A program made the position numbers and the translations under genes. A stretch of DNA of 7,066 nt. It comes from an uncultured Porphyromonas sp. GTDB taxonomy: Bacteria > Bacteroidota > Bacteroidia > Bacteroidales > Porphyromonadaceae. The stretch is taken from NCBI GenBank assembly GCA_947253195.1, contig CAMXXM010000076.1, positions 1 to 7,066 of the forward strand. The letters are read 5' to 3'. A model generated the notes under the pieces. The model was given only the letters and a program-made list of their open reading frames with translations. It was not told the DNA's origin and did no database searches. Positions within the stretch are counted from its first letter, which is position 1; every line of letters starts with the position of its first letter. This document shows positions 2,676 through 7,066 of the stretch, one piece after another.

Positions 2676-3856
2676 TTCGTTGCTTGCATCACATGGATGG
2701 GATTGAAGTGGTCGACAGCCATCAGCGTCTCCTCCGACAGTCCGGTGCCAACATCGGCAAGGCTGCTGAGAAAGAGCTGTCGGCTCTCGTCACTGACAGA
2801 ATTGAAGACGATCCTCCCGCCAGCCGACAGCAGCGGATAGATCCGCCGGATCATCTCCGGGAGCCGTCCACCGTGCCCACCGATGAAGACCGCATCCGGA
2901 GTCGGGAGGGCTGAGAGATCAGCGTCCAGGAAGTCCCCCGGGACGAAGTCGATCCCCGGGGCATGGAGCCTCCGGGCATTGGTCTCCAGGAGCGCTCCAC
3001 CCTCCGGACGGATCTCAAAGGCGACCACAGAGAGGTGGGGAAACTGCAGCTTAGCCTCTATCGAGACAGAGCCGGTGCAGGAGCCCACATCCCAGAGCGT
3101 CTGCGCCTGATGCAGCCCGAGGAGCGACAGGCTCTGCAGTCGTATCGGCGACTTGGTGATCATCCGGGGGCGTCCCTCCAGCGGGACAAAGGCCTCATCA
3201 GGGATCCCAAAGGGACACTCCGGAGTCCTCGTGCGGAGGAGGATCAGGTTATTGGGGTAGCCGAAGTCCCTCTCCATCATCTCCTCGATCGACAGCCGCG
3301 TCACCCTCTGCTCCTCCCGATTGCCGAGATGCTCGCCGACGTAAGCGATGTAATTGTCATAGCCATAGGCGATCATCCGCTCCGCTATCGTGCGGGGCGT
3401 GTGGTGCCTCAGGTCGGTCAGGATGCCGATCATCCGCTCCCCGCAGATCAGGGCCTCGTCAAGTGCCCTCCACGGGCGACCGGTCAGCGAGACCACATGC
3501 ATATCCTGGTAGGGAAGCAGCGCCGCATGAGCCAGCATCTGGAGCGAGTGGAAGTGGGGGAAGAGAGTGATCTCCGCCTCGGGGTGCAGCTCCATGATCC
3601 GCTGTCCGATGCCATTGAATATCGGGTCACAGGAGGCCACCACCACCATATCCTCATACCTGCCGTAGCTGCGGATCTGATCATCTATCGGAGGGATGAT
3701 GTCGATCCAGTCGTGCTCCGTCGGGAGGAAGGGGCGCATGATCTCGTGGTGCCGTCGCCCGCCGGAGAAGTGCCGGTGCGAGCGGATCACCTCCCGCACC
3801 TCCTCCGAGAGTGTCTGCTCCCGACTGTCGCTGATACCGATAAGGAAGATCTTCAT
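2672..3856 (-). CDS. cbiET: CbiE-CbiT bifunctional cobalt-precorrin-6B/7 C5,C15-methyltransferase and decarboxylase (CobL type)
   Basis: 394 residues, the usual length for a CobL-type fusion. The N-terminal CbiE domain (about 1-210) methylates C5; the C-terminal CbiT domain (about 230-394) methylates C15 and removes the C12 acetate carboxyl. CbiE features are FSGGRRHH (30-37), VVVASCDPIFNGIGQRI (71-87), PHFHSLQ (100-106), SLTGRP (123-128), ILTD (145-148) and VGEHLGNREEQ (173-183). CbiT features are ITKSPIRLQSLSLL (233-246), the SAM loop WDVGSCTGSVSIEA (255-268), FEIRPEG (280-286), PGDF (306-309), FIGGHGGRLPEM (324-335) and GGRIVFNSV (346-354). Two departures stand out. The N-terminal CbiE loop reads IGISDSREQ where most relatives have a GxGPGG loop, and CbiT has a Cys in place of a Gly in DxGxGxG. 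Both appear, from memory, in other Bacteroidota homologues. The start and stop are ATGA overlaps with cbiHC and cbiG-cbiF. Confidence 0.94.
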   Translation of the reverse strand: MKIFLIGISDSREQTLSEEVREVIRSHRHFSGGRRHHEIMRPFLPTEHDWIDIIPPIDDQIRSYGRYEDMVVVASCDPIFNGIGQRIMELHPEAEITLFPHFHSLQMLAHAALLPYQDMHVVSLTGRPWRALDEALICGERMIGILTDLRHHTPRTIAERMIAYGYDNYIAYVGEHLGNREEQRVTRLSIEEMMERDFGYPNNLILLRTRTPECPFGIPDEAFVPLEGRPRMITKSPIRLQSLSLLGLHQAQTLWDVGSCTGSVSIEAKLQFPHLSVVAFEIRPEGGALLETNARRLHAPGIDFVPGDFLDADLSALPTPDAVFIGGHGGRLPEMIRRIYPLLSAGGRIVFNSVSDESRQLFLSSLADVGTGLSEETLMAVDHFNPIHVMQATK

Positions 3857-5259
3857 ACGTCTCTGCCGGGGCGTATCGCTGCCGCATCGTCATAGCTCAG
3901 GATCGCATTGCAGAGCGTGGCGGCGAGGTTGCTCCCGCCCTTGCGCCCCTCGATGATCAGTTTGGGGATCTCTCGGAAGGGCTTGATCATATGCTTTGAC
4001 TCACAGACGTGGACAAAGCCCACCGGCGCAGCGATGATGCCTGCCGGCTCAGCCTTCCCCTGATGGATCAGGTCGGCGAGCTCCATCAGCGCCGTGGGGG
4101 CGTTGCCAAAGGCGAAGAGCGCCCGGGGATGATCCTTCACCGCCAGACGGATCCCCGCCTGCGTGCGGGTGAGCTTACCGCCCGCCGTCATCTCCGCAAT
4201 GCGAGGGTCGTGGAGGTAACACTTGGCCTCCAGCCCATACCGCTCAAGGGCCTTCTTCCTTATCCCGGAGACCACCATCGTCACATCGGTCACGATGGTG
4301 TCGACCTCACCGGAGCTTATCCGCTCATAGATCCGGCGCACAGCCTCAGGATCGGTGTGGAGCAGCTCCTCCATCTCGAAGTCTGCCGTCGTGTGGATCG
4401 CATGGAGTAGCGCCCAGAGGTGTCCGGTATCGTATCGGTCAGCATGCTTGAGGAGCGGGAGGATGGTGTGGAAGCTCTCGCTCATGATCTTGGCACCGAC
4501 AGAGCCCTCCTGCTCCTCCTCGCGGTAGTAGCCTCTCGGCGTGACGATGTGGTTGCCGGAGATGTAGCTCTGACTATTGCCGATCAGGATCATCGTCAGC
4601 ATATCCACCTCCGCCTCGTCGAGGCGATCCAGCGTGGTGATCTGCACCCTCTGCTCCGGTCGGCCGGCCTGATAGACGATGCCGACAGGGGTGTCCCCCC
4701 TGCGGTGTAGGAGAAAGAGCTCCACGAGGCGGGTCAGCTGCCAGTACCTCTGCCGGCTGCGAGGATTGAAGACGGCGGTGACGAAGTCGCCCTCCGCTGC
4801 CGCCACGATCCTCCGCTCGATCACCGCCCAGGGGGTCATCAGGTCAGAGAGGGAGACGGAGCAGAAGTCGTGACCGAGCGGGGCACCGAGGAGTGCCGCC
4901 GCCATCTGGAAGGAGGAGATCCCCGGGAGGGTCTCCAGCTCCACCTCACTTCCCCGCTCATCCCGCATCTCATAGAGCAGCGGGGCCATCCCGTAGATGC
5001 CTGCGTCACCGGAGCTGATCATGCAGACGGTGGCACCCGCCTCCGCCCGCTCAAAGGCAAGCTCTCCCCGCTCACGCTCCTGACGCATGCCGGTATCGAT
5101 GCACTCCGCCCCCTCGTGAAGCAACGGCTCGACGAAGCGGAAGTAGTACTTGTACCCCACCACCACGTCGGCCTGACGAAGCACCTGCTCCACAGCAGGC
5201 GTCACCTGCTCCGGACTGCCGGGACCGATCCCGACGACATATATCTTTCCTCTCTTCAT
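3853..5259 (-). CDS. cbiHC: CbiH-CbiC fusion: precorrin-3B C17-methyltransferase and precorrin-8 methylmutase
   Basis: 468 residues, first gene of the cobalamin operon. CbiH/CobJ (about 1-245) methylates C17 and drives ring contraction; it shows VVGIGPGSPEQVTPA (8-22), SSGDAGIYGMA (82-92), PGISSFQMAAALLGAPLGHDF (112-132), the hallmark FNPRSRQR (164-171) and MILIGNSQSY (223-232). CbiC/CobH (about 255-468) moves a methyl group from C11 to C12, forming cobyrinate. It shows SESFHTI (260-266), IHTTADFE (288-295) in which His289 corresponds to the catalytic His of CobH, GNAPTAL (385-391), APVGFVHVCESK (411-422) and GRKGGSNLAA (438-447). A TGA lies in frame eight codons upstream of the ATG with no intervening start, so 5259 is the only reasonable ATG. 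Upstream lie 279 non-coding bases with the palindrome array. A purine-rich GAGAAAGAAG stands just before the start. The TGA overlaps the cbiET ATG. The fusion joins an early and a final step of the corrin ring stage. Confidence 0.95.
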   Translation of the reverse strand: MKRGKIYVVGIGPGSPEQVTPAVEQVLRQADVVVGYKYYFRFVEPLLHEGAECIDTGMRQERERGELAFERAEAGATVCMISSGDAGIYGMAPLLYEMRDERGSEVELETLPGISSFQMAAALLGAPLGHDFCSVSLSDLMTPWAVIERRIVAAAEGDFVTAVFNPRSRQRYWQLTRLVELFLLHRRGDTPVGIVYQAGRPEQRVQITTLDRLDEAEVDMLTMILIGNSQSYISGNHIVTPRGYYREEEQEGSVGAKIMSESFHTILPLLKHADRYDTGHLWALLHAIHTTADFEMEELLHTDPEAVRRIYERISSGEVDTIVTDVTMVVSGIRKKALERYGLEAKCYLHDPRIAEMTAGGKLTRTQAGIRLAVKDHPRALFAFGNAPTALMELADLIHQGKAEPAGIIAAPVGFVHVCESKHMIKPFREIPKLIIEGRKGGSNLAATLCNAILSYDDAAAIRPGRDV

Positions 5260-5288
5260 ACGATCTTCTTTCTCATTATTTCAGGCAT
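5256..5288 (-). CDS. Possible 10-codon leader ORF overlapping the cbiHC start
   Basis: An ATG at 5288-5286 opens a ten-codon frame reading MPEIMRKKIV. Its TGA (5258-5256) overlaps the cbiHC ATG as ATGA, the same arrangement as the four junctions inside the operon. An in-frame TAG lies directly before this ATG, so it does not extend a longer gene. The peptide resembles no family and has no visible ribosome site. It could couple or tune translation of cbiHC, but a frame this short occurs easily by chance. Kept only because of the matching overlap. Confidence 0.15.
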   Translation of the reverse strand: MPEIMRKKIV

Positions 5289-5372
5289 CTACCGCGATCG
5301 GCAGTCCTCGTGATCCGGACCCTGTGCCGCCCCCGGGAGGATCGGCTCTCAGCAGGGAGTGGACCCCTAATT

Positions 5373-5454
5373 CTTTTACCGATATTAGATTTCTCTAATA
5401 CCGATATTAGTTTCCTCTAATACCGATATTAGATGAGTCTAATATCGGTATTAG
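5373..5454. repeat. Four-copy array of a 16-bp near-palindrome at exact 22-bp pitch
   Basis: Copies occupy 5373-5388, 5395-5410, 5417-5432 and 5439-5454. Copies 2 and 3 are identical, CTAATACCGATATTAG. Copy 4 is the exact reverse complement, CTAATATCGGTATTAG. Copy 1 is degenerate in its left half, CTTTTACCGATATTAG. Each full unit is two inverted half-sites of CTAATAyC, differing only at the seventh base. The three spacers are all 6 bases and unrelated in sequence (ATTTCT, TTTCCT, ATGAGT), so the pitch is constant at 22 bp, close to two helical turns. This would place bound dimers on the same DNA face. The array is AT-rich within otherwise GC-rich DNA and I found no other copy in the window. 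The form fits operators for a homodimeric regulator; no family can be named from the motif alone. Confidence 0.93.
5417..5454 (-). other. Perfect 16-bp inverted repeat with 6-base loop (array copies 3 and 4)
   Basis: Because copy 4 is flipped relative to copy 3, the pair forms a perfect 16-bp stem around the loop ATGAGT. In RNA made from the minus strand this would be an AU-rich hairpin 85 bases after the stop of the PepSY-TM gene. It lacks a GC-rich stem and a following U-run, so it is not a standard intrinsic terminator, although it might protect a transcript 3' end or act as an attenuator. The same bases are equally well explained as two operator sites. Confidence 0.45.
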
Positions 5455-5538
5455 TCTGAGGGCATCTCCACCTGCTCTCCGGGCAGCAGCTCCGGCACCG
5501 GTAACATATCTGAGCATAGGTCACAGATTATGAGTGTC

Positions 5539-6981
5539 TTACCTCCGCCGAGTCAGCCGTCTCAGGTAGCGCCAGCCCATCACCACACCGGTCACGGAGA
5601 CCACCAGCCCGCCCAGCACGAGCGTCAGCATCGCCACGAGGCGGATCGTGCTGTGCTCGGAGAAGAACTTTGACCTCAGGTTGTGGCAGAAGGGGTAGAG
5701 CCACTTCTGCAGTCGGTCGTTGCGACTGAAGTAGCGCGAGTAGCCACCGGTGGGGCTGACATAGAGCCGGCTCCCATCTGCGTCCTCGACGCTCACCCGA
5801 TAGATCGGCAGCTCGTAGTCTCCCCGATTGTAGGCGTAGTAATTGTCATACTCATCGATCAGCTCGATCCTCATCGGACTGCCAAAGACCGGCTCCAGCT
5901 TGCTCCGCAGATCACTCTCCGTGAGCCACAGCGGTGCCAGGCTCGGATCACTCCCGTCGAGGGTCTCACTCCTCTCGCCATAGGTCACCTCGTAGTAGGG
6001 CTTGGTGCCGTACTGACGCCAGGCAATCCCCGTGACCCCGGTCCGTGCAGCGAGCTGACGATAGTCGGTGGCGAAGAGGGAGAGGTCGACCGGATCCTCC
6101 GCCCGCGACCGCTTGGCGAGGCTCTTGTCGTGCCTCGGCGTCGGGAAGTCCGACAGGTCGATGAGCGAGGAGGCTCCACTGAGTGCAAAGAGCATCAGGG
6201 AGAGACCGAAGAGGCAACCGGCGATATGGTGCCAGCGGAAGGTTCCACGGTATGGACTGCCGAGACGGTGCCGGCGCCTGTAGTGGCGGATCAGCATATG
6301 GATCCCCACCACGAGCCCACTGAGGCACATCACCCCTCCCAGCGCACCGAGGAGGCTGACGACCCAGACCCAGAGCGATCTATTGCTCCGCAGCCCGGGG
6401 TAGTAAAACATATGGGGGACGGTCCCCAGCGAGGAGACGATCCGCTCTCGCTTGGTGCAGCACTGGAGCGCCCTCCCACTCTTTCCCGAGAGGTAGAGCC
6501 ACGTCCCCTCCGGGTCATCAAAGACGAAGCGGTAGATCGGCAGCTCCTTCTTATTCCGCTCATAGGCGGTCCAGGTGTCGATGCTCCGGAGCGTGTCGAT
6601 ACGCGCTACCGGGTAGCTGCTGAAGCGGGCCGCATAGCTCCGGCACCACTCCTCGGGCATAGCCCTGGGGTCCACCGGGGCGAGCGTACTATCGGCTCGC
6701 AGCGTCAGCCTTGTCCCCGAGTCGGTCTCGATGGTAAAGGTGGGGACGCCATAGGTGGTGCCAAGCGCAAGCGCCGTACAGCGCTCCCCCTCCGGCAGGC
6801 GACTCCTCACGCTGTCTAAGGGTGGCAGCAGCTCCGGGATGGTGTCGGCGACCCTGTCAGCCGCATCCCCCAGCCGGGGATAGCTGCTGAAGATCATCAC
6901 CGACCCGGAGATGAGCCAAAGGACAAAGAGCGGTGCGAGGATCGTCCCGAGGATCCGATGCAGTTGCTTCCAGTGCTTCAT
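5539..6981 (-). CDS. PepSY-TM family membrane protein (PiuB/FoxB-like), candidate heme-bearing reductase of metal-chelate uptake
   Basis: 480 residues, inner membrane, with four predicted helices near 10-31, 203-229, 252-273 and 446-470 and two large extracytoplasmic domains between helices 1-2 and 3-4. The protein is an internal duplication. LHRILG at 7-12 ending in SG (25-26) matches WHHIAG at 250-255 ending in SG (268-269). ELPIYRFVFDDPEGTWLYLS (146-165) matches ELPIYRVSVEDADGSRLYVS (390-409). The segments before helices 2 and 4 carry His190 and His433, and both helices end in GLVVG/GVVMG-type motifs. His8/His251 and His190/His433 are thus paired between halves and are candidate heme ligands, as in the di-heme ferrisiderophore reductase FoxB, a known PepSY-TM protein. 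A positive C-terminus (RRLTRRR) fits a cytoplasmic end. Bacteroidota homologues often sit beside TonB-dependent receptors. The substrate here is unknown; iron chelates are the first guess, and corrinoid reduction is possible given the downstream genes. No Shine-Dalgarno is visible. Confidence 0.85.
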   Translation of the reverse strand: MKHWKQLHRILGTILAPLFVLWLISGSVMIFSSYPRLGDAADRVADTIPELLPPLDSVRSRLPEGERCTALALGTTYGVPTFTIETDSGTRLTLRADSTLAPVDPRAMPEEWCRSYAARFSSYPVARIDTLRSIDTWTAYERNKKELPIYRFVFDDPEGTWLYLSGKSGRALQCCTKRERIVSSLGTVPHMFYYPGLRSNRSLWVWVVSLLGALGGVMCLSGLVVGIHMLIRHYRRRHRLGSPYRGTFRWHHIAGCLFGLSLMLFALSGASSLIDLSDFPTPRHDKSLAKRSRAEDPVDLSLFATDYRQLAARTGVTGIAWRQYGTKPYYEVTYGERSETLDGSDPSLAPLWLTESDLRSKLEPVFGSPMRIELIDEYDNYYAYNRGDYELPIYRVSVEDADGSRLYVSPTGGYSRYFSRNDRLQKWLYPFCHNLRSKFFSEHSTIRLVAMLTLVLGGLVVSVTGVVMGWRYLRRLTRRR

Positions 6982-6991
6982 TGCGGGGGGA

Positions 6992-7016
6992 TTACTTCAC
7001 CGACATGACCCGGCTG
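6992..7016 (-). CDS. Possible 3' end of an unidentified upstream gene
   Basis: Just upstream of the PepSY-TM start an open frame ends SRVMSVK with TAA at 6994-6992. Its codons have G or C in the third position, like the neighbouring genes. A second frame, ending VGEVIPPQ, stays open to 7016 and stops at a TGA (6980-6978) overlapping the PepSY-TM ATG, but its third positions look less like local coding sequence. Only eight codons remain before the adapter, so neither frame can be assigned. A TonB-dependent receptor would fit the context, but nothing here shows it. Confidence 0.25.
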
Positions 7017-7066
7017 CTGTCTCTTATACACATCTCCGAGCCCACGAGACCGTTATTCTAAGCTCG
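7017..7066. other. Illumina Nextera adapter read-through (sequencing artefact)
   Basis: Bases 7017-7035 are exactly the Tn5 mosaic-end sequence used in Nextera libraries, CTGTCTCTTATACACATCT. They are followed at 7036-7050 by CCGAGCCCACGAGAC, the read-2/i7 side of the Nextera adapter. The next ten bases (CGTTATTCTA) have the length of an i7 index. The last six (AGCTCG) differ by one base from ATCTCG, the start of the P7 sequence that follows the index. None of this belongs to the organism. The first one to three bases of the mosaic end could coincide with genomic bases, so the genomic boundary is 7016 give or take a few bases. Confidence 0.97.

Follow-up and report, generated by a model that had tools for sequence, protein, structure and literature searches.

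Many arrays of three to four palindromes recur, roughly every 10,000 bases, in the examined parts of the Porphyromonas bennonis genome, and the palindrome array beside the vitamin B12 operon is one of them. At about even chance, we believe that the array in the window (the whole stretch of DNA analysed, 7,066 nucleotides) belongs to a genome-wide, evenly spaced set of three- to four-unit arrays, which would be loading sites of a putative dimeric chromosome-organising protein. The sequence basis for this reading is the geometry of the arrays, their number and even spacing, the absence of decayed arrays and lone units from the sampled DNA, the conservation of the units, the independence of their half-sites, and the occurrence of the same geometry elsewhere.

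A direct match scan of the window bore out the position (5373-5454), the constant 22-bp pitch, and the 6-nt spacers that the sequence-only reading had described (Table 1). Its count of four units stood, while their exactness held for three: these are identical to the 16-bp unit CTAATAYCGRTATTAG, and the first unit is imperfect. At up to three mismatches, four unit matches were found in the window against a shuffle mean of 0.02, and 0 of 200 shuffles reached four. As had also been seen from the letters, the array occupies the only sizeable gap between genes in the window, 5260-5538. The CbiH-CbiC gene beside the array is context and is not thought to be its target. The Rfam search of the window (E up to 1) gave no cobalamin riboswitch, in agreement with the earlier reading; four weak matches over the array were all far under the gathering scores.

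Table 1. Coordinates of the array units, flank motifs, and neighbouring genes in the window
Feature	Coordinates	Strand	Remarks
Array unit 1, CTTTTACCGATATTAG, 2 mismatches	5373..5388	+	direct match scan
Array unit 2, CTAATACCGATATTAG	5395..5410	+	direct match scan
Array unit 3, CTAATACCGATATTAG	5417..5432	+	direct match scan
Array unit 4, CTAATATCGGTATTAG	5439..5454	+	direct match scan
CbiH-CbiC fusion gene	3853..5259	-	downstream gene; start codon 114 bp from array start
PepSY-TM protein gene	5539..6981	-	upstream gene; 3' end about 85 bp from array
Left flank motif, TGGTTATCAGCA-like, 9/12 here	5343..5354	+	30 nt ahead of array; four-unit class
Right flank motif TCTGAGGGCA, 10/10	5455..5464	+	abuts array end

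The closest named relatives, among the best 80 of 168 loci, were Porphyromonas sp. HMSC065F10 (L031) and P. bennonis DSM 23058 (L032), whose CbiHC proteins matched at 99 and 98%, respectively, and whose DNA matched the window at about 95-96%. The sequence-only reading had named absence of the motif upstream of cbiHC in close relatives, or an unconserved pitch, as evidence against it. Neither was found: the array stands at the matching place, with four units in HMSC065F10 and three in DSM 23058, and the 22-bp pitch is unchanged. The matches of both relatives end at 7016. The last about 50 bases of the window (7017-7066), which we take to resemble a Nextera transposase adapter, are probably contig-end contamination rather than genome.

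The coordinates of the nearest of the searched genomes (G001) agree in the listed places with the P. bennonis DSM 23058 record, and those of its sister species (G006) agree with the HMSC065F10 record. A near-palindromic 17-mer with up to two mismatches gave 321 forward and 329 reverse-strand matches in G001, which are the same sites read from both strands, and 0 and 1 matches in the reversed control. At up to one mismatch, the motif was present in 9 of 61 genomes, with more than two matches only in G001 (268) and G006 (229). A sample of 400 kb of G001 (20 stretches from four contigs) contained 35 arrays. The strict pattern counts four units in 24 of them and three in 11; a looser pattern gives 25 and 10. 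The 130 units in the sample were compared with CTAWTAYCGRTAWTAG; 64 were exact, 39 had one mismatch, 19 had two, seven had three, and one had five. Together with 73 listed places, the 35 sampled arrays bring the genome to more than 100 places. The sample contains 103 units with at most one mismatch and the genome 402, which extrapolates to about 140 arrays per chromosome.

The 31 gaps between arrays in the G001 sample ranged from 5.5 to 20.5 kb, with a mean of 10.7 kb and a coefficient of variation (CV) of 0.38. When arrays were placed at random 20,000 times, the largest minimum gap was 2,668, and neither the observed minimum nor the observed CV was ever reached. Restricting placement to intergenic slots (six settings, 5,000 runs per setting) did not once yield the observed minimum gap or CV either; 31 of the 35 arrays lie inside slots of the crude ORF map used for this control. 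Outside the sample, 55 listed places on 18 contigs are separated by 37 gaps, none shorter than 6,305 bp; 0 of 5,000 simulations reached this minimum, on the assumption that contigs end 5 kb beyond the last array. These lists are incomplete, which may lengthen gaps and cannot create short ones, while a short gap to an unlisted array would escape; 18 further contigs with a single listed array have no gap and are left out.

Eleven contigs of G001 (C2, C4, C6, C24, C29, C31, C40, C53, C57, C61, and C63) start 170-690 bp from a listed array. The start of C2 may lie in a transposase end, a guess from its sequence, and arrays may lie near insertion sequences.

The arrays of P. bennonis are sharply set off from the background. 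The mismatch sum over the best three units was 0-4 in all 35 arrays, no value fell between 5 and 18, and the background began at 19 (17 in the shuffled control). In the 400 kb, none of the 103 units with up to one mismatch stood alone, and no decayed array was found over the best three units. Weaker arrays were seen in 4 of 26 arrays of G006 (sums 6, 8, 9, and 12) and also in G012. At two places in G006, C19 about 39,966 and C37 about 67,596, scaffold gaps (N runs) begin inside palindrome arrays; therefore, those arrays may exceed their assembled length.

Conservation was concentrated in the units. Comparison of the window with HMSC065F10 showed 1 changed base among the 64 of the units and 6 among the 18 of the spacers (p = 3e-4); DSM 23058 was omitted from this count because one unit is missing there. 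The information per column was about 1-1.9 bits within the unit and 0.1-0.3 bits in the mid-spacer, with T and A preferred at the spacer edges. The unit columns start with CTAWTA and finish with TAWTAG. Positions 4 and 13 of the unit showed no dependence on each other (p = 0.59); folded as a hairpin, the commonest unit, CTATTACCGGTATTAG, would accordingly be mismatched. Positions 7 and 10 formed Watson-Crick pairs in 63 of 130 units, where 79 were predicted under independence, and the double variant TCGA was absent, T7 never occurring with A10 (0/30). The units behave as if at least one strong half-site were required in each. On balance, the results favour a dimer that recognises duplex DNA. 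The earlier suggestion that constant helical phase with free spacers reflects side-by-side dimer binding thus gains indirect support from the unit and spacer conservation and the half-site analysis. In the four-unit class seen in G001, a variant ending in GACTAYAR (mostly CTAATACCGACTATAG) took the place of unit 3 in 12 of the 26 arrays that had been oriented, by a count made by eye; therefore, the units may not be interchangeable.

The geometry was also found with other palindromes, both in other Porphyromonas and in further Bacteroidales. Palindromes standing three in a row at a constant pitch were sought de novo, the maximum score of a Markov-shuffled control being 56 in 0.9 Mb; such arrays were detected in G003, G004, G009, G010, and G012, with several families per genome. 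The pitch was 22 in 22 of 30 arrays in 400 kb of G009 and in 22 of 27 arrays in 500 kb of G012; these counts retain coding repeats, and some G009 rows may be such repeats. Small samples of G002, G005, and G008 gave no arrays at a stricter threshold and three in 80 kb at a looser one. In P. uenonis (L033), two pitch-23 arrays of ATTCCTAGGTAGGAAT-like units, at 8156 and 19768, lie 11.6 kb apart and flank its cbiHC; their geometry is similar to that of the window array, and their palindrome is different. Among 80 Bacteroidales loci (the best 80 of 168, 1.46 Mb, with near-duplicates such as two B. fragilis included), 28 arrays outside long ORFs fell in 18 loci, compared with three at any pitch in the shuffled control. 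Their pitch was 22 in 16 and 23 in five, and other pitches occurred at most twice each. When ORFs were included, pitch 22 or 23 accounted for 36 of 73 arrays, and the rest were mostly 21, 30, 33, and 39. The rate of pitch-22/23 arrays was 24 per Mb outside Porphyromonas and 33-90 per Mb in the Porphyromonas samples; E. coli K-12 had 0 in 300 kb. Low-complexity units were removed before counting in the 80-locus, G009/G012, and E. coli scans. Tandem Repeats Finder gave no row on one G012 stretch. The array scan also met repeats containing AATTTCTACTATTGTAGAT at L177 about 5,960 (G010 C1 about 45,960), which we take to be like a type V-A CRISPR array.

The evenness of the spacing differs between genomes: it is very strong in P. 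bennonis and clear in G009, but weak in G012. The main family of G009 (26 places) had a minimum gap of 5,049 (P = 0.0005), and the minimum distance between the main and second families was 6,026 bp (P = 0.001); before this test, second-family pairs 298 and 592 bp apart were merged, and other array-like rows were left out. With all G009 arrays unmerged, P was 0.0064 for the CV and 0.515 for the minimum gap. For all arrays of G012, P was 0.098 for the CV and 0.013 for the minimum gap. The G012 families gave P = 0.043 and 0.14 singly, 0.011 jointly, and 0.098 between families, with cross-family gaps of 2.7 and 4.4 kb. In G003, six gaps gave P = 0.031 for the CV, and one pair was 2.5 kb apart.

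The main alternative to an architectural role is a mobile element that avoids itself. The arrays would then be non-autonomous, MITE-like elements of roughly 130-150 bp, the palindromes would be transposase-binding sites, and the even spacing would come from target immunity. We regard this as rather unlikely, and it draws its strength from the flanks, from the turnover of positions, and from the presence of several mostly intergenic families per genome. In G006, the arrays at C90, C31, and C8 (the last cut by the contig start) have a common flank over 55-147 bp at 81-87% identity, and two further array groups have common flank pieces. The start of the other flank is common to C90, C31, and the G001 orthologue of C90. 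Among the 35 arrays of G001, there was a single 30-bp flank match. Of 26 four-unit arrays (24 from G001, plus those of the window and HMSC065F10), 17 had their best match to a TGGTTATCAGCA-like motif precisely at -30, and a TCTGAGGGCA-like sequence followed the four-unit arrays of G001; these motifs were picked by eye from the same arrays, and the motifs also decided the orientation of the arrays. Judging from the shared flanks and the fixed-distance motifs, the arrays seem to have spread as modules of roughly 130 bp (size by eye).

Array positions turn over between G001 and G006. For eleven G001 arrays, flank could be located in the sampled DNA of G006. The corresponding place is occupied by an array in three cases and empty in one with both flanks present; four cases with one usable flank show no array, and three are uninformative (two hit a stretch or contig end, and one rests on repeated DNA). 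The opposite comparison yielded six rows: three are the occupied places already counted, one has no array, one rests on repeated DNA, and one is ambiguous. The intergenic DNA of the two genomes is too diverged to show an empty-site junction, and the ends of a mobile element could not be defined. Several observations speak against mobility. In an unsystematic look, terminal repeats, target duplications, and an autonomous partner were not seen. The decayed arrays and lone units expected from old transposon families were missing from the 400 kb of G001. The two differently spelled families of G009 keep apart, which family-specific immunity would not produce. Viral contigs contained no exact two-unit match.

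Known repeat elements were compared with the arrays; BrickBuilt comes closest in genus and dispersal, but neither it nor REP or parS fits. BrickBuilt, a MITE/minisatellite of P. gingivalis, is described in the available part of its report as 23-nt head-to-tail direct repeats without spacers, with up to 18 units per element, leaders and tails of up to 285 and 318 nt, IS5-like terminal repeats, and 19 copies in ATCC 33277 (PMC4596501). The likeness lies in the genus, the intergenic position, the dispersed short tandem units, the leader and tail flanks, and the gain and loss of units between strains, as far as that part of the report goes (PMC4596501). In contrast to the spacerless head-to-tail repeat outlined there (PMC4596501), the present arrays have three to four units, each a 16-bp palindrome, separated by 6 nt to give a pitch of 22 bp, and they occupy more than 100 evenly spaced places. 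Compared with the leader and tail of BrickBuilt, the flanks conserved here are short, and a longer common flank is nearly absent in G001; terminal repeats were not seen at these arrays in an unsystematic look. The accessible part of a further paper mentions BrickBuilt and describes no 22-bp palindrome arrays (PMC5771137).

REP elements of the GTAG and CGTC families are, in the part of the source available, 20-40 bp palindromes that prefer unidirectional or convergent genes and show G-T pairing in the stem (PMC3733652). They resemble the arrays as dispersed, intergenic, high-copy palindromes, and differ, on the same partial text (PMC3733652), from strict three- to four-unit arrays whose units never stood alone in the sample, lacked hairpin covariation, and showed no orientation preference. 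A REP/RAYT hairpin under structural selection was not found, with positions 4 and 13 independent and pairs at 7 and 10 fewer than predicted. The CTAWTA and TAWTAG ends of the unit carry no GTAG or CGTC tag at the stem foot. Plasmid iterons and Tn7-type TnsB sites are direct repeats with a pitch of about 22 bp and several phased sites, and Tn7 has target immunity. Pitch and phasing are thus shared with the arrays, whereas these are built of palindromes, and no replication or transposase gene was seen attached to them. In the open-licence literature searched, no title or opening of an abstract described 22-bp palindrome arrays.

It is improbable that the arrays are operators or insulators through which a global transcription regulator controls nearby promoters. 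Their intergenic position and dimer-type sites would suit such a regulator, although a regulon is not expected to give even spacing. On a crude ORF map made without a gene finder, 33 of the 35 G001 arrays lay outside ORFs, seven between convergent, 11 between divergent, and 12 between tandem genes, and three at stretch ends. The 11 divergent cases agree with a regulator, but the orientations 7/11/12 show no preference against an intergenic background of 11/22/38. Gene neighbours also failed to recur between species. Across seven genomes with 155 arrays and 1,844 ORFs (19 genome pairs and 425 reciprocal protein pairs), an array lay next to both members of eight reciprocal-best pairs, compared with 9.0 predicted from the margins. 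For the sister species G001 and G006, the count was three against 1.2 predicted. The search of these seven genomes for an orthologous neighbour that could be a self-regulated gene gave nothing recurrent beyond genome pairs.

The control of corrin synthesis proposed by the sequence-only reading fared worse, and a protein-based switch for the cobalamin operon now appears very improbable. Retention of the array upstream of cbiHC in the window and both relatives, and the lack of an Rfam riboswitch in the window, agree with such a switch. The genome, however, contains hundreds of copies of the motif, next to genes in every orientation, and the genome of P. uenonis, which carries cbiHC, has no motif match at up to one mismatch. 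A B12 operator was set aside because the copies are genome-wide and the neighbouring genes are shared between species no more than expected. Random scatter, which had been named as evidence against such control, is borne out in part: the motif is scattered over the whole genome, yet far from randomly.

Hairpins in RNA or DNA, whether terminators, REP-like structures, or a small RNA, are equally hard to credit: the array strand folds well (z -6.45), its 60-nt arms in the window are 73% complementary, and one G003 family resembles by eye a long inverted repeat with complementary arms, but palindromes complementary to one another must fold, the commonest unit is mismatched when folded, covariation within units is absent at positions 4/13 and 7/10, and G001 showed no copy-specific complementarity in the flanks (p 0.59-0.96) or between first and last spacers (p 0.25 and 0.87). 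A riboswitch or other RNA was rejected on the low Rfam scores and the absent covariation in G001.

Short chromosomal palindromes bound by dimers organise or mark the chromosome in the parS/ParB, Noc, SlmA, and MatP systems, and parS is a 16-bp palindrome. Their sites are not known as evenly spaced 22-bp arrays. The array unit is unlike the parS consensus TGTTYCACGTGRAACA. Sites with 1-2 mismatches to this consensus cluster elsewhere, at C3:42592-47752 in G001 and C90:30873-36358 in G006, and their counts in G003, G004, G009, and G012 were within control. ParB_N gave one match in each of seven genomes, and a second ParB-like reader was not found. With one ParB per genome and parS-like sites elsewhere, the array binder is probably not ParB. 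HU-HIG proteins are expanded in this phylum; they gave 3-9 matches per genome in the seven genomes, a number that, judged by eye, did not evidently follow how many array families a genome has. The ParB_N and HU-HIG searches and the comparison of array neighbours in the seven genomes did not find the cognate binding protein.

For the chromosome-organising protein, we propose that dimers sit next to one another along one face of the DNA duplex and that each unit would need at least one strong half-site. Selection may keep the spacing itself, because spacing could set domain size, supply loading points for a spreading protein, or anchor the nucleoid. Occasional copying of the sites, in modules of roughly 130 bp, would allow new positions to arise while old ones are lost. 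The architectural role is weakened by the several families per genome, which would be odd for one protein. The weaker spacing in G012 and G003, the weaker arrays of G006 and G012, the flank copying in G006, the turnover of positions, and the complementary arms of the window array and of one G003 family are counterpoints as well.

More tentatively, and at somewhat below an even chance, we suggest a chromosomal ruler of the Bacteroidales: arrays of three to four phased palindromes, rarely less than about 5 kb and typically 10-20 kb apart, would be bound by fast-evolving dimeric proteins, with the 22-bp pitch fixed and the spelling specific to the species. If this is true, chromosomal domain size would be set independently of ParB, MatP, or SlmA. 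Evenly spaced sites of a protein-binding type along a bacterial chromosome are unusual. Should the arrays prove to be mobile, such spacing would be a remarkable example of an element that avoids its own copies. A geometry fixed at 22 bp, combined with palindromes that change, also provides a natural experiment on how a protein and its sites co-evolve. If the arrays organise the nucleoid, they would represent a domain-setting system for the Bacteroidales, a dominant gut and oral order.
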